A DNA stretch of 41,164 bases from Lachnospiraceae bacterium (GTDB lineage: Bacteria; Bacillota; Clostridia; Lachnospirales; Lachnospiraceae): the NCBI GenBank assembly GCA_017520425.1, contig JAFXFO010000042.1, positions 1-41,164 of the forward strand, written 5' to 3'. A model generated the notes under the pieces. It was not told the DNA's origin and did no database searches. It was given only the letters and a program-made list of their open reading frames with translations. Positions 7,425 through 31,312 of this stretch are shown piece after piece; position 1 is the first letter of the stretch, and each line of letters opens with the position of its first letter. The position numbers and the translations under genes are program-made.

Positions 7425-8072
7425 ATGGAATTACATGAAAAACTTCAGGAATTAAGAAAGAGCAGAGGGCTTACTCAGGAAGAATTGGCAGAAGTCTTGT
7501 ATGTATCCAGAACGGCTGTTTCAAAATGGGAATCGGGAAGGGGATATCCAAGCATCGATTCCTTAAAGGCAATTGCTTCCTATTTTTCAGTAACCATTGA
7601 TGAATTGTTGTCCGGGGAGCAATTACTTTCTATAGCGGAACAGGAAAATAGGGCAAATATTCGAAGTGTTTGCTACTTATTATTTGGAATCGTGGACGTA
7701 TGCACTTTTTTGTTGATTGTTTTACCGCTGTATCCGAATATGGCAGATGCGCATATTTATTCTGTAAATCTGTTACAGTACACAGAAGCTATGATGTGGA
7801 AAAAATTTGTTTACTGGATTCTGTTTCTGGTGCTTATTGCGTTAGGTCTGGTCAAAATATTGTTGGTGAAAAAACAAGTAAAGAATAATCAAAAGAAGGT
7901 GACGGATATTTCTATGTTGCTAGGCATATTTACGGTTTTGTTCTTAGCACTTGCAAGAGAGGTATATGCCATAGTGATTGCATTTTTATTGTTAGTGATT
8001 AAGGGGATATTATTGTTAAAGAGTGTAAGTGGGGGTGAAAAAAATTCTCCTTTGAATGTTTCTTTGAAATAA
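7425..8072 (+). CDS. Membrane-anchored XRE-type regulator
   Basis: A 215-aa protein. Residues 5-62 are a Cro/CI-type HTH (LRKSRGLTQEELAEVLYVSR, then AVSKWESGRGYPS). The C-terminal two thirds contain about four hydrophobic spans (around residues 84-103, 128-147, 163-180 and 183-198). Such proteins may link membrane state to transcription. GGGAGG lies before ATG 7425, and the 17-bp gap from the PAP2 gene implies co-transcription. The target is unknown. A terminator follows. Confidence 0.82.
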   Translation: MELHEKLQELRKSRGLTQEELAEVLYVSRTAVSKWESGRGYPSIDSLKAIASYFSVTIDELLSGEQLLSIAEQENRANIRSVCYLLFGIVDVCTFLLIVLPLYPNMADAHIYSVNLLQYTEAMMWKKFVYWILFLVLIALGLVKILLVKKQVKNNQKKVTDISMLLGIFTVLFLALAREVYAIVIAFLLLVIKGILLLKSVSGGEKNSPLNVSLK

Positions 8073-8080
8073 GATGAAGG

Positions 8081-8115
8081 AAGAGTGGAGTATGAAAGTG
8101 CTTCACTCTTTTAAT
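8081..8115 (+). terminator. Rho-independent terminator
   Basis: AAGAGTGGAG at 8081-8090 pairs with CTTCACTCTT at 8101-8110 (one G-T pair), followed by TTAAT. It closes the PAP2/XRE pair. Confidence 0.75.
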
Positions 8116-8135
8116 GTTTGTGCCATTAAATCAAT

Positions 8136-8240
8136 TGATACGCGTAAACATATATGATTCAATGATACCATAAATAATAAGAGGCATAAGGTGGACTTAG
8201 CAGGAGAGTTGCATACCGATATAAAGCTTACTTAACAGGA
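8136..8240 (+). pseudogene. Deleted second copy of the small HTH gene
   Basis: Positions 8136-8191 align without gaps to the promoter and leader of the 91-aa HTH gene (3115-3170): about 60% of bases agree, most in the second half, including AAATAATAAG and GGCATAAGG. Straight after it comes coding sequence matching only the end of that protein, SRRVAYRYKAY against SRRTAYRYKAY. The start codon and about the first 65 codons are missing. I read this as an internally deleted remnant. Confidence 0.6.
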
Positions 8241-8253
8241 AGGATAAGCAGAT

Positions 8254-8510
8254 ATGGAAGAGCGAGCAAATATGATTATTGAAGCCTGTTTGCATGAGGT
8301 GAGTAAAAGTCCCATAGATATTTTTAATCATATTGCCCATATGGATTTTGTCGGAATACACGGACCCGAACATCATGTGTTAGACGGAGCTGCCCTATTA
8401 ACAGCTTTTTACAATGCCGGTGGGGAGGTTGATTTTACAGAATAGTTTACAGGAACTTATGAAAAGGGGACTGCAAATGCCGGGAGCTATTTGTGGCATG
8501 TGGGGTGTCC
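8254..8510 (+). pseudogene. DUF5714 gene fragment, frameshifted
   Basis: The first 63 codons read MEERANMIIEACLHEV and then GIHGPEHHVLDGAALLTAF, the signature block of DUF5714 proteins (function unknown). An in-frame TAG at 8443-8445 stops it, but the homology continues in the +2 frame from about 8438 as LQELMKRGLQMPGAICGMWG. A single-base indel therefore broke the frame. The match ends abruptly near 8506, where an unrelated tail begins. The N-terminal Cys-rich part of normal DUF5714 proteins is also missing. Confidence 0.65.
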
Positions 8511-8640
8511 GTTTATCGGTAGAGCATTTGATGATAATTGGGGATTAGAGGATCCAACCGGAAAAGCAGATGAGGCTTACAGATTGGTTATTGCGGAAAT
8601 TGAAAACAATATCATGCACTTGAAAAAAGAGTTAGAATAA
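8506..8640 (+). pseudogene. 3' remnant of an arsenate reductase-like gene
   Basis: From 8506 a frame reads CPFIGRAFDDNWGLEDPTGK and continues to TAA 8638-8640. The DNWGLEDPTGK block resembles the C-terminus of low-molecular-weight phosphatase-type ArsC proteins (recognition by eye). The catalytic N-terminal half with the P-loop cysteine is absent. It directly abuts the DUF5714 fragment, which suggests a deletion that fused two neighbouring genes. Confidence 0.45.
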
Positions 8641-8659
8641 TTGAAGAGAACATAAGAAA

Positions 8660-8966
8660 ATGAGTGCGTATATGGGAAAGGAAAGAAAGCAGGAAGCAAG
8701 GAAACAGAAAAAGGAAGGACTCGGCACCGAGGAAAAGCACGACGTTTGTCAATACATTGTACCGGCAGATGCATTGCCGCAGAGTTTTATACGGAGCTTG
8801 AGAATCCGGAACATTCATTGGCGGCCATGCTGGTTTATGGTATTAGTGCATATTTGGTATCTGTGGTATCGGGGAAATTTATCTTGGATGTGTGAATACC
8901 GCGGACAATAGGCTTGTACTATATCCGATTGATGTGGAAGAAATGCAATTTGATCCCTTTGAATAG
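8660..8966 (+). pseudogene. Decayed ORF of unknown family
   Basis: The first frame reads MSAYMGKERKQEARKQKKEG and then GLGTEEKHDVCQYIV. More natural-looking sequence continues in another frame (AAEFYTELENPEHSLAAMLV, then GISAYLVSVVSGKFILDV), and in a third frame to TAG 8964-8966 (YPIDVEEMQFDPFE). Two frame changes in 300 bp suggest a gene inactivated by small indels. I do not recognise it. Confidence 0.4.
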
Positions 8967-8972
8967 AGTATA

Positions 8973-9006
8973 AAAAGAGTGAAGTGTAATAACTTCGCTC
9001 TTTTAT
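8973..9006 (+). terminator. Rho-independent terminator
   Basis: A 13-bp stem (AAAAGAGTGAAGT at 8973-8985 with ACTTCGCTCTTTT at 8992-9004) ends in a T run. Confidence 0.85.
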
Positions 9007-9088
9007 ATTGGAAATATTGCAGTTATAGTGTCGCAATTTGTAGTGATGTGATATACTGTATACAGAAACATATTAGGAGGACGCGAAT

Positions 9089-10498
9089 ATGAAGAAACGG
9101 ATGAACAAAGGGATATGTTTGGTTGTGTCTCTGATTATAATGTTAGGTGCTATGGGATGCGGACAGAAGGCGGATGTAGTGGGCGAGGAAAGCATAACGG
9201 AAAGTAGTGTTTCGATATCGAAACACGAAGCTGAAGAGGTTCAGCCCACACCGGTTCCGGAAATAGTTGAGGATACAGAAGAAATCGAAGGATTACAGGA
9301 AATCTCTGATGTGGAGAAGCAGATTAGTATGCAGCATTATGAGAGGTTGGATACAATCGATGTCTATTCAAAGGAAGTAAATGGCCATCCTTATTATATC
9401 GGACGTGACAATTATGAAGCAAATATTGATTACATGATGAATCATAAGACAGCCGAAGATGGTTTTGTATATTTGGGGTTGCCTCTGTATTTGCCGAACA
9501 AGGTAAGTAAAGATACTTGTTATGTAACTGTATCCGATGAAAACGTAGCAAAAGTGGAAAACAATGAACTGATAGGCCTTCAGCAAGGCGTATTTGTACT
9601 TTCGACTTATGATGAGAACAAAACACTTATCGAAGAGAAGAAGTATGTATGTACCACCTTTAATGATTCTAAGACGGACAAAGAAGCGTTGATGACCATA
9701 AAGGTTGGTTCCGACGGAATGACAGCAGATTTTATCAATGCCAGAGATTTTGAGTATTGGAAGAAGTCCGTACATACCATTATGGATATGAGTTTTATGC
9801 TTCAGGCAAGACATTTTGTATATGACTTTTATAAAGAACCGGCATTTGGTGTGATTGAACATACGGATAATCCGGAAGAGGTTTGGAACTGGACAGCTCA
9901 TGCAGAAACTATTTTTGATATGAGCGGTGGTGTATGTATTGAGGTGGCACAGCTGGCATTAGCTATGTTGGCAGAGGATTATGAGGACTGGGGAGTGGTC
10001 CTGGTAGAAGGAGAGCAGGGACATATTTTCAATTGGTTCTTTGAAGATGGTTACTATTACATTTTTGATTTCACACAAGTGATTTCGGATAATGCATGGT
10101 CTAAGAGTTTTGAAAACGGACAGTACCATAAGTATTGGGATTATTCGGATAAAGTAGTAAAATGTGCTGATATTGAAGAAATCAAAGAGTACATTGTGAC
10201 AAAAAAGGTGGATACCCGGTTGAATTATCTTGTATATATGTATTCCTGCAAGGGACATGATTATATTGCATGTAATCTGAATACGGCTATGAATGATAGT
10301 TATGCTGCTAACAGAGGGGAGTTTGAAGAGATTATTATCGGATATCAGGATGTGGTAATGGAGGATTTGGTTGTACTTTATCAGAAGGAAGGGATTCGTA
10401 TTACATTCAAATCCTTCGATGTAGATCAGATTAATATTTCAATTCCATGTGGTATTTACAATAATAATGAGAAACTAACATACAGACATCCTTACTAG
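9089..10498 (+). CDS. Transglutaminase-like lipoprotein
   Basis: A 469-aa protein with a type II signal peptide: basic start, hydrophobic residues 9-20 and lipobox LGAMGC with C24. A Ser/Glu-rich linker (about 28-75) leads to a region with an Ig-like flavour (95-205), then a transglutaminase-like core. Its likely triad is C283 in SGGVCIEVAQ, H312 in GHIFNWFF and D327 in YIFDFTQ. The family includes peptidases and cross-linking enzymes acting on surface or cell-wall proteins. It is expected on the outer face of the membrane. AGGAGG precedes ATG, and an extended -10 element (TGATATACT) lies at 9049-9057. It is followed 79 bp later by a histidine kinase gene; co-transcription is possible. Confidence 0.72.
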   Translation: MKKRMNKGICLVVSLIIMLGAMGCGQKADVVGEESITESSVSISKHEAEEVQPTPVPEIVEDTEEIEGLQEISDVEKQISMQHYERLDTIDVYSKEVNGHPYYIGRDNYEANIDYMMNHKTAEDGFVYLGLPLYLPNKVSKDTCYVTVSDENVAKVENNELIGLQQGVFVLSTYDENKTLIEEKKYVCTTFNDSKTDKEALMTIKVGSDGMTADFINARDFEYWKKSVHTIMDMSFMLQARHFVYDFYKEPAFGVIEHTDNPEEVWNWTAHAETIFDMSGGVCIEVAQLALAMLAEDYEDWGVVLVEGEQGHIFNWFFEDGYYYIFDFTQVISDNAWSKSFENGQYHKYWDYSDKVVKCADIEEIKEYIVTKKVDTRLNYLVYMYSCKGHDYIACNLNTAMNDSYAANRGEFEEIIIGYQDVVMEDLVVLYQKEGIRITFKSFDVDQINISIPCGIYNNNEKLTYRHPY

Positions 10499-24384: not shown

Positions 24385-24414
24385 AAAATGCCCGGTTATG
24401 CAACCGGGCATTTT
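24385..24414 (+). terminator. Rho-independent terminator
   Basis: A perfect 13-bp stem (AAAATGCCCGGTT at 24385-24397 with AACCGGGCATTTT at 24402-24414) ends the GH43 gene. It is symmetric and could also stop minus-strand transcription from the remnant to its right. Confidence 0.88.
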
Positions 24415-24600
24415 CAATGTCAATCCGTTCCGATGATATATGCCGTTTGAATCAGTGGTGAAAGAGAGAGTAGTACTCGTCTCATTCAAGGAGGTATTGA
24501 TTCCGGAAAGGTCTTAGCAATATCAAAAGCCTGCAACCGATAACCGTATATAGATACGGGTAGCGGCCTTGGGAGAGAGGCACTATATTGCGTGCATCGG
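24415..24600 (-). pseudogene. Decayed partial second copy of the phosphoesterase gene
   Basis: On the minus strand this stretch reads, with frame breaks, SLPRPLPVS, then AFDIAKTFPESIPP, a stop, and TSTTLSFTTDSNGIY. The intact gene next door reads SLPRPRPNS, then KLTKIAATPNED and NTTLSFTTSSSGIY in the same order (about 26045-26216). Only this middle piece survives: the signal peptide, catalytic domain and C-terminal repeats are gone. The promoter and phased operator of the intact gene are duplicated too, just upstream (24630-24739). With those two features it explains most of the 379-bp gap between 24377 and 24755. Confidence 0.6.
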
Positions 24601-24629
24601 AAGGTATGTGTATTTCAATTATTAAATAC

Positions 24630-24658
24630 ATTATAGTAAACAAATATTACAGAAACAA
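24630..24658 (-). promoter_or_regulatory. Promoter of the decayed copy
   Basis: On the minus strand TTGTTT (24658-24653) and TATAAT (24635-24630) are 17 bp apart. The element sequence, spacer length and flanking CTTGTTTCTGTA match the promoter of the intact gene at 27468-27496. Confidence 0.65.
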
Positions 24659-24689
24659 GGTTTCGCAGACAACATACCGAATAGGTGTA

Positions 24690-24739
24690 TAAGTGGCTGT
24701 ATTAAGGGATAAGTTGCCAAATAAGTCTGCTAAGTTGCC
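24690..24739. promoter_or_regulatory. Three phased TAAG repeats, second copy
   Basis: Plus-strand 9-mers TAAGTGGCT (24690), TAAGTTGCC (24710) and TAAGTTGCC (24731) are spaced 20 and 21 bp apart. They start 32, 52 and 73 bp upstream of the -35 element, exactly as in the copy at 27528-27577. Two-turn spacing of about 9-bp direct repeats is typical of LytTR regulator sites, whose published consensus begins with a core ending in GTT. Confidence 0.55.
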
Positions 24740-24755
24740 GTTAAGGACAAAATGC

Positions 24756-27428
24756 CTATTTTGCCACCTTTACGGTAACTTCCTTGAAAATCTGCATGTT
24801 TCTGGAGCTGGTAGAGCTATTTGCTGAGGTGGCCCATTTCCAGTATTCTCCGGAATAAGTGGTGTAGTACAAATACTTAGTGGTGCCGGAAACTGTCTTC
24901 AATCTGTCTGCGGATGCATCATAGATAACCTTTGCAGCGTTAGAAGATGAACTGCGGATGGTGTCACCGGCATTGTCTGATTTGGTACCGATATATTTAC
25001 CGTTATTGCTTAAGATAAAACCATTTTTCGTATCACCGGATGCCGTCCAAACTGCGTTAGCATTACTTAATTCAATATAACCGTTCTGGTAAGTAGTAGT
25101 ATCGGTTACCAGAGGAGTCGTGTTGATGGTGACTTTTTGGGCACCTTCATCTCCGTTGTTGTTCAGGTGAGCAAGAGGAGCCCCACCAATGGTTTCTTCG
25201 CCGATTAACAAATATTTACCGCTGTTTTCAAAATTGTCTACCGGTACATAGATGGTCTTTTCTTCGTAAACCACAGGTGCATTTGGGGTAGGATTAGCAG
25301 GTGTCTTATTACTACTTGTGGTGGAAGAAGATGAGCTGGTAGATTCTTGCGTAATGCTACCGGTAGTAATCTCCTTCATAGCTGTTATTTTTATGGTTGC
25401 TTCCGGATTGGAAGAACCGGGAGCTGTAAAATTGCCTGCTGTGTCACTGTAACCGCAGATTGCACAGGTTCTTTTCGTCCAGCCTACAGAATCCGAAGTG
25501 GGCTGTGTGGTTGCACATGCAAAAGCATGATGGCTGCAAACAGGGACTTCTCTATAAATCCACATTTGTCTGGAGCTGGTTTCGCTATACTTGGAATCAA
25601 TAAATTTCCACTGTTCCGTTCCACTGGTAGAGTAGTATAAGTACTTAATCGTGGAAGAATTGGTATGAAGTCTTACATCTGCTGCATTGTAAAACAGGTA
25701 AGCAGCCTCTGAGGAAGAACCTTTCACGGTATTGCCGGTTTCTCCGCCGATATAACGGCCGTTATTACTTAACTTATAACCGTTTTGGTCATCACCGGTA
25801 GCGGTCCATACCGCATTGGGGTTATTGAGGTAAATCTGGGAGTAGTTCACAGAAACATTTTCGGTTCCTTCGTTACCATTATTGTTTACATAAGCAATGG
25901 GTTCCCCATAACGTCCAAGTTCGCCTATCAGAAGATATTTGCCGCCATTTTCAAAGGAATCTGCTTTCTGATAAACCGTTCCCGTATTTGTAGGTAAGCT
26001 ACCCGCATTGAAGGTAGTACCTGCAGTAGCACCGGGATTCAAATCCGTTCCGATGAAGTAAATACCGCTGGAAGAGGTAGTAAATGAAAGGGTAGTATTA
26101 TCTTCATTCGGTGTGGCAGCAATCTTAGTCAGTTTCTTGCCATCCTCAGAAAGCTGATACACTCCTAAAATTAAGGTTGAATTTGGTCTGGGTCTGGGAA
26201 GTGAAATGTTTGCCGTGCGTGCTTTTCCATCGGAAGGTAAATTCACATGATATCCGGTATAATCATTTAATGCACCGGAAGCTGCTATGTAATGGTCACG
26301 ATGGTCGGCTAATTCTATTCTTCTCACATGAGGAACTGCTTGTCTGTAAACATCAAGGTCTACTCGGAATCCATCTTTATAAATACCATCTTTATTGTAG
26401 GTTGAGTAATTAATTCTGTCCGGATAAATGGTGATAACCATGGCGGTATCAATACGGGTATTTTTCTTTGCAGTGTGAGAACCGGGATTTAAATAACCGG
26501 CACACAGATGCGTAAAGTTGAGTTTGACGTTAGTACTGTCGCATTCAGGTTTACCATTAACCATATGGGGGTTGCATGCTACAGGCATGGTAGAGCCTTT
26601 CTGGTAGGTATAATCACCCACTTCGTCATGGTTATGGTTATGACCAAAGAAAAACGCTACATCCATATTTTCGGCGACGCTGTTAATCGCGTCACACCAT
26701 TCTAAAGCATGTCCGTTGTCATTGCGGCGGTCAAATAAAGGCTGGTGTGACATAATAAAGAGGGGCTTGCTTGGATCTAATTTAGCTGCTTGTGTTTCAA
26801 ATGCTTTAATGGTTGCAGTAACAGCTTCATCACTATTGAAGCCTGAAGAGTAGCGGTCATCGGTTGATAAATCCGCCATGCTCAAATTGTAAATATAATA
26901 ATTGGATTTACCATCCAAACCATATACAAATCCGCTGGTTTTACCGCCTTCTATATTTTTTTTGTCTTCCGTTGTTACTATGGGATGGATATTACCATTT
27001 TGGTCCCGGGTATTGAATTTGTCCGAATAACGGTCATGGTCGGACCATACATAGTTCACAGGGATATTACCAAATACAGATTGAATGGTATCAGTGATTG
27101 GTGCGGTTTCGCAAAAATACTTTGGCTTATCGCCGCTATCTTCACATACGGAGAAGGCGTCTCCGGAACTGGTAACAGTGCTGATGGGAAGCCCGGAATT
27201 TTTAATACCGGTCATCACAGAGCGAAGAAAATCGGTCTTGTATGCTTCGTTAAGTTGTTGCTCAGAAGCGTTTGCGGGTGGCTGGTTTACGTGAAAGTCC
27301 GCAAATACCACAGCGGCGTCTATCACGTCTGTTTTTGCACCTTCACCGGCATGAACCGGGGTACTCATGGTTAAGAGTAGCGCCAATGTCAAAAGCAGGG
27401 AAGGAATAAGGCGTTTCATTCGTTTCAT
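24756..27428 (-). CDS. Secreted metallophosphoesterase with tandem C-terminal repeats
   Basis: An 890-aa protein with a Sec signal peptide (residues 1-27, MSTPVHAG cleavage region). The calcineurin-like metal motifs occur in order: D44-F-H46, G-D90, S-D130-H131-D132 (usual G-N-H-D varied), H228 in MSHQPLF, and G-H263-N-H265. A module at 395-465 follows, then two related 140-155-aa repeats (about 491-628 and 731-886), both with SGKYLLIGE-like starts and NAVWTASGD cores. A Cys-rich insert with CSHH and CAIC and a Ser/Thr linker separates them. There is no LPXTG or SLH anchor, so it is free or bound through the repeats. It probably cleaves an extracellular phosphoester. GGAGG precedes ATG. It is divergent from a LytTR regulator. 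Confidence 0.82.
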   Translation of the reverse strand: MKRMKRLIPSLLLTLALLLTMSTPVHAGEGAKTDVIDAAVVFADFHVNQPPANASEQQLNEAYKTDFLRSVMTGIKNSGLPISTVTSSGDAFSVCEDSGDKPKYFCETAPITDTIQSVFGNIPVNYVWSDHDRYSDKFNTRDQNGNIHPIVTTEDKKNIEGGKTSGFVYGLDGKSNYYIYNLSMADLSTDDRYSSGFNSDEAVTATIKAFETQAAKLDPSKPLFIMSHQPLFDRRNDNGHALEWCDAINSVAENMDVAFFFGHNHNHDEVGDYTYQKGSTMPVACNPHMVNGKPECDSTNVKLNFTHLCAGYLNPGSHTAKKNTRIDTAMVITIYPDRINYSTYNKDGIYKDGFRVDLDVYRQAVPHVRRIELADHRDHYIAASGALNDYTGYHVNLPSDGKARTANISLPRPRPNSTLILGVYQLSEDGKKLTKIAATPNEDNTTLSFTTSSSGIYFIGTDLNPGATAGTTFNAGSLPTNTGTVYQKADSFENGGKYLLIGELGRYGEPIAYVNNNGNEGTENVSVNYSQIYLNNPNAVWTATGDDQNGYKLSNNGRYIGGETGNTVKGSSSEAAYLFYNAADVRLHTNSSTIKYLYYSTSGTEQWKFIDSKYSETSSRQMWIYREVPVCSHHAFACATTQPTSDSVGWTKRTCAICGYSDTAGNFTAPGSSNPEATIKITAMKEITTGSITQESTSSSSSTTSSNKTPANPTPNAPVVYEEKTIYVPVDNFENSGKYLLIGEETIGGAPLAHLNNNGDEGAQKVTINTTPLVTDTTTYQNGYIELSNANAVWTASGDTKNGFILSNNGKYIGTKSDNAGDTIRSSSSNAAKVIYDASADRLKTVSGTTKYLYYTTYSGEYWKWATSANSSTSSRNMQIFKEVTVKVAK

Positions 27429-27467
27429 AATAATTATCCTCCGTTTGTACGAATTGTTACATAGGTA

Positions 27468-27496
27468 ATTATAGATAAGAAAAAATACAGAAACAA
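27468..27496 (-). promoter_or_regulatory. Promoter of the phosphoesterase gene
   Basis: On the minus strand TTGTTT (27496-27491) and TATAAT (27473-27468) are 17 bp apart, about 40 bp before the start codon. It is duplicated at 24630-24658. Confidence 0.72.
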
Positions 27497-27527
27497 GGAT
27501 TGCGGAATGACAGACCGTTTAGGAGGA

Positions 27528-27577
27528 TAAGGCGTCGTATGAAGGAATAAGCGGTATGATAAAGGGAGTAAGTTGCC
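27528..27577. promoter_or_regulatory. Three phased TAAG repeats, probable LytTR operator
   Basis: Plus-strand 9-mers TAAGGCGTC (27528), TAAGCGGTA (27548) and TAAGTTGCC (27569) are 20 and 21 bp apart. They start 32, 52 and 73 bp from the phosphoesterase -35 element. The identical register in the decayed copy at 24690-24739 points to selection or recent duplication. The neighbouring LytTR-domain regulator is the natural candidate to bind here (inference). Confidence 0.55.
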
Positions 27578-27602
27578 ATTTTCTGTTTTGAAACAAAAAC
27601 AT

Positions 27603-27632
27603 GGCATCTTGGTAGTCAAATATGCCAACTTA
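27603..27632 (-). promoter_or_regulatory. Opposite-strand pair of the same 9-mer
   Basis: On the minus strand TAAGTTGGC (27632-27624) and CAAGATGCC (27611-27603) are separated by 12 bp, a 21-bp period. They lie next to a TTGACA at 27636-27641 that may be the -35 element of the LytTR gene, so they could serve in autoregulation. Confidence 0.4.
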
Positions 27633-27719
27633 GTGTTGACAAAGCAATGCTGTTAAGCTAAGGTTAAGTTAAGAGAAGTTGTTTGTGTATTTGACATTAA
27701 AACAGGGAAAGGAACAGCT

Positions 27720-29441
27720 ATGGAACGTAAGAAAATCTGTATTATTTCCGGTGAAATGAAGGGGGATTATAATGATGATTATATGTTGGGAGCAGAGTCC
27801 CGTGCCAATGAGCTGGAATATCAGACAGTCACCTTTTCCATGCTTTCCCAAGGAACTGTTGATACCAATAAAGAAGAATGCATATACTCCTACATAAATT
27901 TTGATGATTACGCAGGAGTGATATTCAATGAGCATTCCTTTTCGGCACATAAGCACCTGGCACGCAGTGTGGAAGGACAGATTAAAAAACAGTGCAAGGT
28001 GCCGGTGGTAACACTGGGACAGTCCAATGTATCCGAGGATTGTTTTGTGCTGGATAGCATGAGGGATTTTGAGGCAATCACAGAGCATCTGATACTGGTG
28101 CATGGTTGCAGGAGAATCTATTTCCTGGGTGGAAATAAGTCAGACAGAGGACGTCGTATCCAAGGGTTTAAGAATGCGGTTATTACCCATGGATTGTGCG
28201 AGGAAGAGTGTATAAGCCTGTACGGAGGATATTGGACGGATTGTGCAGAAAAGCTGGCAAGAGACATTGCCAGTGGTGATGTGGAGATTCCGGAAGCTGT
28301 GGTTTGTATTACGGATATTGTGGCATTTGCATTGATAAAGGCGTTGTTCCGACAGGGAATCCGTGTGCCGGAGGACATCCGCGTTTGCGGCTACAATGCT
28401 CATCCCTGTGCTTTTAATAGTTTGATTTCCGTGACGACCTTTCCGGTTCGGGCAAAGGAGTGCGGTGCGAAGGCAGTAAATCGTCTTCATGAATTGATTA
28501 CAGGCAAGAAAGAGACGATGAAAATGCGCCCCCCATCCTCCCTTATTACGGGAAAGAGTTGCGGATGCGGTACACAAAGTCCGGCCAATTTGAAATTCCG
28601 CCTGTTAGAGGCTGAGAGGGAAGAACAGCAGGAGATGTATTTCCGCAACGGCAAACTGGAGGAGGCTATCATGGATGCCAAAACAGTGGAGCAAATGCGG
28701 GATATTGTGCGTGACAGGGAATATCTGATTCCCTATAGAAATCTGTTATCAGTGAATCTGTTAAATAACAACGGAGAAATCTGGTGTCAGTATATGTCTG
28801 GTAATATAGTGACCGGAGGCGCGGAACGGGTCAAGAAGGGAAAGCTGTTTCCGGAAAATAATCTGCCGCCGGACAGCATTAACAATTTGCATGTTGTACC
28901 CTTGGTTTATAATGGAGTAAACTACGGATATGTGATAGTAGGATATACGGAACCATTAGTATATAATAAGCATTTGAGGAGCTTTTGCCATTGCCTGGCA
29001 CTTTGGTGCAAGGTGATGGGAAGCGGTCTGGTTGATGTAAGTTCTGAAGAAGAAAAGTCACAAACCTTATTCAACCGGGAAGCACTTGGTATAAAATCGG
29101 AAGCGTCTAAAACGACAGATGTGGTTTTTGGTAAGAAGAATAATCTGATGCATAAGCTGAAGCTGGAAAATATTCTGTATTTTGAAGCGCTGGATAAAAA
29201 GGTTTATGCCATTACGAAAAATGAAACATACGAGGTGAACCAGAGACTGTTTGAAATAGAGGAACTCTGTGCCGACAAACGATTTATGCGAATATCCAAA
29301 TCTGTAGTCCTGAATCTGGACAGAATCAGCAGTGTTAAGCTGGAGGAGGACAGGAGCTGCAAGGTAATTCTGACACCACAGATGTCAGTGCGGGTGTCGC
29401 GTGCTTACATAAAAGAGTTTCGAATGAGACTGGGTATGTGA
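27720..29441 (+). CDS. LacI-type ligand-binding domain fused to LytTR DNA-binding domain
   Basis: A 573-aa cytosolic protein. Residues 5-285 look like the periplasmic-binding-protein sensor of LacI/GalR regulators (GVIFNEHSFSAHKHLA, VVTLGQSNVSEDCFVLDS, RRIYFLGGNKSDRGRRIQGF, and VPEDIRVCGYNAHPCAF). There is no N-terminal LacI HTH. A middle region (290-450) with a GAF-like feel follows. Residues about 470-573 form a LytTR domain (ENILYFEALDKKVYAITKNE, then RFMRISKSVVLNLDRISSV). It should bind a sugar-like ligand and control genes through LytTR repeats, probably the divergent phosphoesterase gene and perhaps the FecR-domain gene downstream. GGAAAGGA precedes ATG 27720. Confidence 0.8.
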   Translation: MERKKICIISGEMKGDYNDDYMLGAESRANELEYQTVTFSMLSQGTVDTNKEECIYSYINFDDYAGVIFNEHSFSAHKHLARSVEGQIKKQCKVPVVTLGQSNVSEDCFVLDSMRDFEAITEHLILVHGCRRIYFLGGNKSDRGRRIQGFKNAVITHGLCEEECISLYGGYWTDCAEKLARDIASGDVEIPEAVVCITDIVAFALIKALFRQGIRVPEDIRVCGYNAHPCAFNSLISVTTFPVRAKECGAKAVNRLHELITGKKETMKMRPPSSLITGKSCGCGTQSPANLKFRLLEAEREEQQEMYFRNGKLEEAIMDAKTVEQMRDIVRDREYLIPYRNLLSVNLLNNNGEIWCQYMSGNIVTGGAERVKKGKLFPENNLPPDSINNLHVVPLVYNGVNYGYVIVGYTEPLVYNKHLRSFCHCLALWCKVMGSGLVDVSSEEEKSQTLFNREALGIKSEASKTTDVVFGKKNNLMHKLKLENILYFEALDKKVYAITKNETYEVNQRLFEIEELCADKRFMRISKSVVLNLDRISSVKLEEDRSCKVILTPQMSVRVSRAYIKEFRMRLGM

Positions 29442-29518: not shown

Positions 29519-31312
29519 ATGGAAAAGAAAAAAGGGAAAAAAGTACTACTGATAGCAATTATTGCAGTAATACTGGTTGTAGCTGCTGTAATCACCACTG
29601 TTCTGCTGATGGGCGGACATCGTGTGATTAAAGTAGATGACATGGACGGTTAGGTGACTTTGGAAAGAGGGTCTGCAGAAAAAGATATTGTAGAAGGCAT
29701 GAATCTGAAGTCCAAAGATATGATTACCACAGGTGAGGATGGTTTGTTGGAGTTGCTGGTAGATACGGATAAGCATATTCTGGCAAAGCAGAATACCTGT
29801 TTTGAGATTGTTTCCAGCGGTAACGAGAAGAAGGGTAAACTGAAGATTAAGCTGGCATATGGTTCTTCTTTGGTTGAGATTGAGAATAAGTTAAATGAGA
29901 ATTCATCCGTGGAGGTGGAAACACCCAATGCCAGTCTTAGTGTAAGAGGTACTACTTTTGAAGTAAGCTACTCTGAGGAAGAAGAGAATACCATAGTAGA
30001 GGTTACCGATGGTGTGGTAGAAGTAAAAGTCGGTGACGAGAAGCAGAAGGTGAAAGCCGGTCAGATTGTAAATGTTTCAGAAGAGGGTATCGTAGTTGCG
30101 TATAAGGAATTTATGTACAACAACGTACCTGCATTTCAGATTGGGCATTCCGAAAACGGTAAAATCTATGATGTTTACATGAAGGAATTGAAGGATTGGA
30201 AGTATGAAGTGTCTGAGATTAACGGTACGATCATAGACGAGATGGTTAAGGACGGAATCCGAATTCGTTATTTAGTAGAATCGAAGGAAGAAACGGAAGA
30301 TAATCTGGAATACTTAGAGGAAGCCGGTTACTTAATGAGCAGAGAGACTCTGACCAATGACGATGGGGATGAGGTTTTGTATGCGTTAAGCGGATCGAAG
30401 GATGCGGATGGAGATTTAAATGTATCTTACCGCTATTATAAGGAATTGCCCAATGATATGTATGTCTATATCAATGTATTCTCCTTAGAACGTCCTAAAG
30501 TAGTGGGTACAAAGGATAAGGAAGACTATTTACCATTGACCAATGATTGCTATTTCTTCTTAGGTTTGCCGGAAGGAGTAGAAGAGCCGAAGACGGAAAG
30601 TTCAGCAAGTTCCGGTTCGGAATCAGAGGCACCGAAAGGGGATGTAGAAGTATCTATCCCTGAGGCAGAGCCTGAAGTGACAGAACCTGAAGAAATTGTA
30701 GTTTCGGATACTTTTGAACTGAGTGCAGAGCCTATATTCGAGCTGGAACCGGTAGACCCTGAAAAAATGATTGCGGCGGATGAAGTCCCCAATTTATTTA
30801 ATGGTGAAGTGACTTTTGAGGAGTTACAGTATGCTATCAGAGTTAGGGATTATTCACGTATGAAGCAAAGTCAGGATACCATTAAAAATGCATTGGAAAT
30901 CATGTGTTATGAACCGGAGATTGCGGGCGTATACAGTCCCTTGAAGGGTACAAAGTATTCCTATGATGCAGAGCATTTGAATCGTATTTATTCAGTGATT
31001 ACAACATTCTGGATTGTGGATGAGGTTCTTCCCGAGGGGGCTACCTGCCCTTGGCCTGAAAATATATTAACACTTGTGCCGGCTTCAGGGGTTCAAGAGG
31101 ATAAGAATTATGCAAGAATTATCAGGATTTATTATGGGGAAGAAGAAAATGATATTTGTGTAGATTATAATTTCAGACAAAACTATAATGCAGAAGGAAC
31201 AAGATATTGTGAAGGAACATGCTGTATCCATTTTGCAATTGATGAAGAAACCGGCAAGTATAGGTCGAATTTCATAATGCAATATGACTGTCGCGATGTA
31301 TACCCGGAATAA
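29519..31312 (+). pseudogene. FecR-domain membrane protein interrupted by an amber codon
   Basis: An ATG with AGGAG upstream starts a basic stretch and one membrane span (residues 8-32, VLLIAIIAVILVVAAVI). At codon 45 the frame hits TAG (29651-29653), immediately before VTLERGSAEKDIVEG, the first strand of a FecR domain. The same frame then stays open for 552 codons. FecR core motifs follow (ELLVDTDKHILAKQNT, TPNASLSVRGTTFEVSY, VEVTDGVVEVKVG), then an acidic linker and a C-terminal domain. No ribosome site precedes the GTG at 29654. It is either a recent nonsense mutation, a sequence error or readthrough. Without the anchor the domain would stay cytosolic. Confidence 0.75.

Follow-up and report, generated by a model that had tools for sequence, protein, structure and literature searches.

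A window of 41,164 nucleotides from a Lachnospiraceae bacterium (assembly GCA_017520425.1, contig JAFXFO010000042.1, the whole stretch analysed here) carries two rows of TAAG-type direct repeats, each upstream of a minus-strand promoter, together with a gene at 27720 encoding a protein with a LytTR domain. We consider it highly likely that these repeats are half-sites for the LytTR domain of this adjacent one-component regulator, acting by the mechanism proposed below. More specifically, the regulator very probably binds the row of four repeats beside its own gene and controls the neighbouring gene, which encodes a phosphatase-like protein. The operator is of a LytTR kind already known, and the four-site array is the new variation. 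The features on which this reading rests are as follows:

24630..24658, minus strand: copy 1 promoter, TTGTTT-17-TATAAT, read by eye (-35 at 24653-24658)
24670..24678, plus strand: copy 1 half-site 1, proximal and degenerate, CAACATACC, 11 bp from the -35
24690..24698, plus strand: copy 1 half-site 2, TAAGTGGCT
24710..24718, plus strand: copy 1 half-site 3, TAAGTTGCC
24731..24739, plus strand: copy 1 half-site 4, distal, TAAGTTGCC
24756..27428, minus strand: target gene, 890-aa phosphatase-like protein, signal-peptide-like start read by eye
27468..27496, minus strand: copy 2, divergent promoter of the phosphatase-like gene, TTGTTT-17-TATAAT, read by eye (-35 at 27491-27496)
27508..27516, plus strand: copy 2 half-site 1, proximal and degenerate, TGACAGACC, 11 bp from the -35
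27528..27536, plus strand: copy 2 half-site 2, TAAGGCGTC
27548..27556, plus strand: copy 2 half-site 3, TAAGCGGTA
27569..27577, plus strand: copy 2 half-site 4, distal, TAAGTTGCC
27720..29441, plus strand: regulator gene, 573 aa, LacI-type ligand-binding domain, middle region and C-terminal LytTR domain

An earlier, sequence-only reading of this DNA had proposed a LytTR operator made of three TAAG-starting 9-mers lying 32, 52 and 73 bp from the -35 in each of two copies. All of these 9-mers are present (starts 24690, 24710 and 24731 in copy 1; 27528, 27548 and 27569 in copy 2), and each array is in fact made of four half-sites, with a degenerate fourth lying 20 bp nearer the promoter. At both promoters the half-sites are thus spaced by 20-20-21 bp and the proximal one ends 11 bp from the -35, so that the arrays span 24670-24739 and 27508-27577. 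Spacers within the window pairs are 11-12 bp, as in TAAGTTGCC-N12-TAAGTTGCC, which falls within the 10-13 bp expected between direct repeats of about 9 bp; such repeats typically lie about 10 bp upstream of the -35, and the proximal sites end 10-11 bp away in the arrays measured.

Similar spacing does not arise equally often in shuffled AT-rich sequence, a concern raised with the original proposal. Counting both strands, the window has two chains of the form TAAG-20/21-TAAG-20/21-TAAG, whereas 300 dinucleotide shuffles have 0.033 on average and never two. For the two intergenic stretches by themselves, such a chain arises in fractions of 0.00055 and 0.00095 of 20,000 shuffles each. We also built a weight matrix from 20 sites in relatives, leaving the window out; the four best pairs of the whole 41-kb window are the reported ones (30.3, 23.8, 22.7 and 17.8 bits), and the fifth, at 11.8 bits, likewise lies within copy 1. 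A pair of at least 22.5 bits turns up in only one of the 300 shuffled windows, whereas the real window has three, in a test that is not fully independent because the relatives' sites were picked by eye for their likeness to those of the window.

Conservation of sites over spacers, a comparison that does not depend on the matrix, provides the second line of evidence. Among the 13 regulators examined, ten have the 20-20-21 array beside them: that of the window, that of a relative with 65% regulator identity (G179), those of two metagenome-assembled genomes (MAGs; L072 and L073, both 58%) and those of six genomes of the genus g73 (37% in G073). The proximal site lies 11 bp from the -35 in both window copies, G179, L072 and L073, and 10 bp away in the six g73 genomes. 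In the g73 alignment, of six sequences, invariant columns make up 26 of 36 in the four sites and 13 of 59 in the spacers between them (P 1.6e-6); L072 and L073 share 50 of 54 positions in sites compared with 44 of 71 in spacers (P 5e-5).

The domain content of the regulator agrees with this reading. Pfam places the LytTR domain (PF04397) at residues 477-571 (E 2.7e-20) and Peripla_BP_3 at residues 127-281, with Peripla_BP_1 also matching and no further Pfam match at E 0.001. In a structure model, matches to the LacI effector fold extend over residues 1-283 (one to 291). No N-terminal LacI helix-turn-helix is found by Pfam, and residue 1 of the model aligns with residue 53 of CcpA, past the helix-turn-helix of that protein. 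With a ligand-sensor domain fused to LytTR and neither receiver nor kinase, the regulator is a one-component LacI-type sensor; as a 573-aa LacI-LytTR fusion it does not belong to the LRS type, which comprises small LytTR regulators without a fused sensor. The ligand is probably a plant-derived sugar, judging from neighbouring genes only. A GH43 gene is found in the window and in G179, and an arabinofuranosidase gene adjoins the regulator in G073 and G514. From these glycosidases an arabinose-type signal would be a guess; L072 has a gene for a DUF1934 protein there instead. An LRS would have the gene of a partner membrane inhibitor directly downstream of the regulator; the downstream neighbour in the window encodes a FecR-domain protein, and that in G179 is a GH43 gene in two fragments.

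LytTR proteins are known to drive regulatory RNAs from pairs of repeats, as in the VirR/VR-RNA and AgrA/RNAIII systems; RgaR of Clostridioides difficile also carries a LytTR domain, and the sensor of RcoM1 is a PAS domain. The candidate RNA of g73 described below, which has no Rfam match, would be an output of the same sort as those of VirR and AgrA, two systems that differ in regulating virulence in pathogens. The closest likeness in the operator itself is to the LRS (HdrRM, BrsRM and relatives), whose repeats, in the excerpted text of the source, are 9 bp long, are mostly separated by 12 bp and strongly favour a position 10 bp from the -35 (Zou et al., 2018; PMC6193735). Direct repeats of 9 bp, the CTTA core, the spacer and the distance to the -35 all agree with the window: the reverse complement of TAAGTTGCC, GGCAACTTA, is near the SMU_1070c repeats GCAACTTAG-11-GCAACTTGA, another published example being ACCTCTTAT, and in the published register, which is one base on, the proximal gap of 11 bp in the window becomes 10 (excerpts of PMC6193735). 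The window differs from the LRS in having four half-sites rather than two, in the fusion to a LacI-type sensor and in an array that would serve a divergent gene. RcoM1 and CoxC likewise combine a sensor domain with a C-terminal LytTR domain and more than two direct repeats, and differ in the MHYT sensor of CoxC, triplets of 8-bp repeats, CO-related genes and a proteobacterial host, as far as the excerpts of PMC11347149 describe them. RgaR has critical G residues at -51 and -72, 21 bp apart, and a small RNA, SpoZ, as direct target; it differs in being a two-component response regulator with a single, VirR-like repeat pair (excerpts of PMC10602386).

The regulator gene has a separate pair of repeats at its own promoter:

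27603..27632, minus strand: operator pair of the regulator promoter, reading GGCATCTTG-N12-GCCAACTTA on the plus strand and ending 3 bp before the -35
27636..27641, plus strand: -35 of the regulator promoter, TTGACA

This opposite-strand pair with 21-bp period, also part of the sequence-only reading, is where that reading had placed it. The same 3-bp gap recurs in L073, in G179 and, after a one-base register shift, in L072. The position of the pair at the regulator's own -35 suggests autoregulation, with repression somewhat more likely than activation in the window. All six g73 genomes have a half-site between the -35 and the -10 of the regulator's own promoter, and autorepression is therefore favoured in g73.

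Under the mechanism that we propose, the soluble LacI-type sensor domain would bind a ligand, perhaps a plant-derived sugar, whereupon the LytTR tail would occupy the four half-sites, which lie upstream of the divergent promoter on one helix face (20-20-21 bp). Binding would be nucleated at the strong sites, the two distal ones; the two weak proximal sites would be filled cooperatively, so that the protein comes to lie about 11 bp from the -35, where it would activate RNA polymerase. Occupation of the 21-bp pair abutting the regulator's own -35 would provide autoregulation, more likely repression than activation. Finally, the unit of operator, promoter and gene would have been duplicated, one gene copy decaying to a relic while its operator stayed intact.

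The target protein has no Pfam, NCBIfam or PDB sequence match; by eye, its start is presumably a signal peptide, and we take further motifs to be those of a calcineurin-type metallophosphoesterase. Only the copy 2 array precedes this gene. Both arrays described in the sequence-only reading are real, as products of a duplicated unit, and copy 1 now precedes the relic of a gene, not a working one:

24422..24622, minus strand: relic, decayed internal piece of the duplicated phosphatase-like gene, about 200 nt, frame broken
24385..24414, minus strand: terminator-like hairpin, perfect 13-bp stem followed by a T-rich run, at the end of the relic transcript (unlisted by the mechanical scan)

The relic aligns over nearly its full length to an internal part of the phosphatase-like gene with a score of 89, compared with at most 64.5 in 200 shuffles; the alignment is rich in gaps and the frame is broken. 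Within its best 50-bp block, third codon positions differ at 11 of 17, compared with 2 of 17 and 4 of 16 at the others; the duplicate therefore probably functioned as a gene for long and decayed late. The contig of G179 has a single phosphatase-like gene with a CoA-transferase gene directly after it, whose counterparts in the window are separated by a GH43 gene and the relic.

In other lineages the array faces non-coding stretches. Behind the array promoter in L072 (5653-5750, minus strand) and L073 (5283-5380, minus strand) lies a stretch of about 95 nt that is identical in both MAGs, ends in a strong terminator hairpin and precedes a hydrolase-like gene with promoter-like sequence of its own. 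A GTG frame in L072 spans the transcript and the terminator and continues into the hydrolase gene, so the stretch may be a leader of this gene rather than a separate RNA. Beside the LacI-LytTR regulator in each of the six g73 genomes, the array promoter faces a candidate RNA of about 310 nt (L141 1404-1717, minus strand; L142-L146), whose strand we assign because a promoter-like TTGAAA or TTGAAT-17-TATAAT is conserved in all six.

The g73 stretch, in a position that would suit an RNA driven by the regulator, is a candidate for a new structured RNA family. Its 193-nt core is 92-100% identical pairwise, compared with 74-90% for the initial 900 bases of the regulator gene and 66-92% for the operator region, and its fold has a z-score of -5.8 relative to shuffles. 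A variable hairpin with paired changes stands next to nearly invariant ones, and a conserved hairpin loop near the 5' end, ACUCCUACA, contains CUCCU, the complement of the ribosome-binding site. The RNA varies so little that covariation is modest: 4 of 95 pairs show changes in both partners, a count reached in 40 of 500 shuffles; the covariation score is reached by 4 of 500 and the percentage paired by 1 of 500. The longest open frame starting inside the region on the transcript strand is 38 codons in L141 and 30 in L145; a short peptide is the alternative, and one of these frames is shared in part, in DNA that is nearly invariant anyway. There is no match in Rfam. A model of the RNA, R1 (Infernal, stricter filters), had hits in two of the 397 family genomes, which both belong to g73, none in the other 395 and none in the window, L072 or L073.

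Within the window's own genome, pair matches with 0-1 mismatches occur solely in the window. Five exact pair matches were found in six genomes, four upstream of a LytTR gene and the fifth being copy 1 itself. Across 138 genomes of the genus, pairs with at most one mismatch number 22, compared with 12 in the control; of the 20 outside the window, four directly adjoin a small LytTR gene (L089, L124, L126 and L131), and among the remaining 16, all but L121 were inspected, with 11 inside an open frame of at least 110 codons and four not (L119, L125, L128 and L130). In a genome-wide motif search, of the sort suggested in the sequence-only reading, the triple TAAGNNG pattern appeared in the window's own genome at the two known places only. 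A large regulon in this genome was considered and discarded on these grounds, together with pair matches at two mismatches that are no more frequent than in the backwards control.

The latter result also weighs against our reading, and several others have to be set beside it. The triple pattern is not enriched in the genus (22 matches compared with 64 in the control), and no LytTR gene was seen in its 20 loci, a count in which three known regulator loci have LytTR domains past the fetched flank. The regulator L078 and L076, a paralog in the window's genome, are without a TAAG array and have a weaker related pair only, L077 has a single pair at 20 bp, and the mechanical promoter scan listed neither of the two TTGTTT-17-TATAAT promoters. 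To these are added the selection by resemblance of the sites behind the matrix, the seven other LytTR domains in the genome and the comparative nature of the evidence, which establishes the sites, their geometry and conservation, the domain content and the relic, and from which we infer binding, cooperativity, ligand, activation and autorepression. On balance the operator reading is nevertheless strongly supported at the level of sequence comparison, by the LytTR domain, the conservation of sites over spacers in two alignments, the unchanged geometry in relatives and the agreement with published repeats.

The seven additional LytTR domains would allow the array to be the operator of a different LytTR protein, either an LRS-type regulator or one of the response-regulator kind, with its place beside the gene at 27720 incidental. 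An identical TAAGTTGCC-N12-TAAGTTGCC pair before an LRS-like LytTR gene in G186 points the same way, and the motif is therefore not private to the window regulator. However, the confinement of close pairs to the window and the company that the array keeps with ten of 13 related regulators make this explanation improbable. Chance repeats in AT-rich upstream DNA, retained through general promoter conservation, could be imagined given the shortness of TAAG and the background level of two-mismatch pairs; shuffles, matrix and the conservation of sites above spacers contradict this, and we regard it as extremely improbable.

Two further alternatives concern what the arrays do. The protein might act as a repressor, either by obstructing the divergent promoter or by forming a DNA loop from one array to the other, and be released by ligand, in the fashion of LacI. 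The LacI-type sensor and the half-site inside the regulator promoter in all six g73 genomes would fit such a role, as would CoxC, a sensor-LytTR protein that represses via repeats overlapping the -35 (excerpts of PMC11347149). At the divergent promoters, however, the sites end 10-11 bp upstream of the -35, as in the autoactivating LRS promoters (excerpts of PMC6193735), and none overlaps it; repression there appears unlikely, if less so than the neighbouring alternatives. Copy 1, in turn, was at first favoured as a novel small RNA encoded in the window, on account of its fold z-score and terminator, and was dropped when its transcript proved colinear with the phosphatase-like gene. As the promoter of a working regulatory RNA of about 240 nt, with C-rich unpaired loops and a terminator, it would have an intact operator, a fold z-score of -5.5 with the terminator and -3.4 without, a strong terminator hairpin and the precedent of relatives whose arrays do face non-coding stretches. 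Against this stand the colinearity and the third-codon-position differences, the finding of only two short matches (24 and 31 bases) outside its own genome in 138 genus genomes and the lack of an Rfam match at the gathering score. We therefore hold a functional RNA at copy 1 to be rather improbable and prefer the relic of a duplicated gene.

Beyond the window, we tentatively propose, as a possibility that falls short of an even chance, that LacI-LytTR fusions are a class of one-component sugar sensors not described before, with a fixed four-site array (20-20-21 bp, 10-11 bp from the -35). Different lineages would have placed different outputs behind this array, the phosphatase-like protein in the window and non-coding RNAs in others, among them the g73 RNA of about 310 nt. 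If true, the LacI-LytTR protein, its array and its RNA would parallel AgrA/RNAIII and VirR/VR-RNA on the nutritional side. No publication on LacI-LytTR fusions was found in the open-licence literature, and a text search for the 9-mer gave nothing on bacterial regulation among the matches listed; the window thus offers a testable regulator-operator pair for an architecture unreported in the literature searched. The arrays also suggest that LytTR proteins may read more than one repeat pair, with phasing retained while sequence drifts, and analysis of the operator has led to a candidate RNA family in another genus.

Several further observations were made along the way. The paralog L076 (G000:C1:8005-9701) was matched as two overlapping pieces, 9495-9701 and 8005-9504, and may be frame-shifted for that reason; its upstream pair, CAACATGCC-N12-TAACATGCC, is a related yet distinct motif. 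Directly downstream of the window regulator, at 29654-31312, lies the FecR-domain protein (552 aa), with weak adhesin similarity well below NCBIfam cut-offs. The GH43 gene directly downstream of the G179 regulator is present as two open-frame fragments (L079 7260-8174, minus strand). At L089 (997-1491, minus strand) an LRS-like small LytTR gene has an exact TAAGTTGCC-N12-TAAGTTGCC pair 12 bp from the -35 and is followed by a weak, below-cut-off DUF3021 match and an ABC transporter gene. In G188 and G237 (L156, L160, L166 and L167, near 1501), triple TAAGTTGC repeats at 20-21 bp lie in or near intergenic DNA; no LytTR gene is found within the 3-kb loci, and the repeats possibly mark another LytTR regulon.

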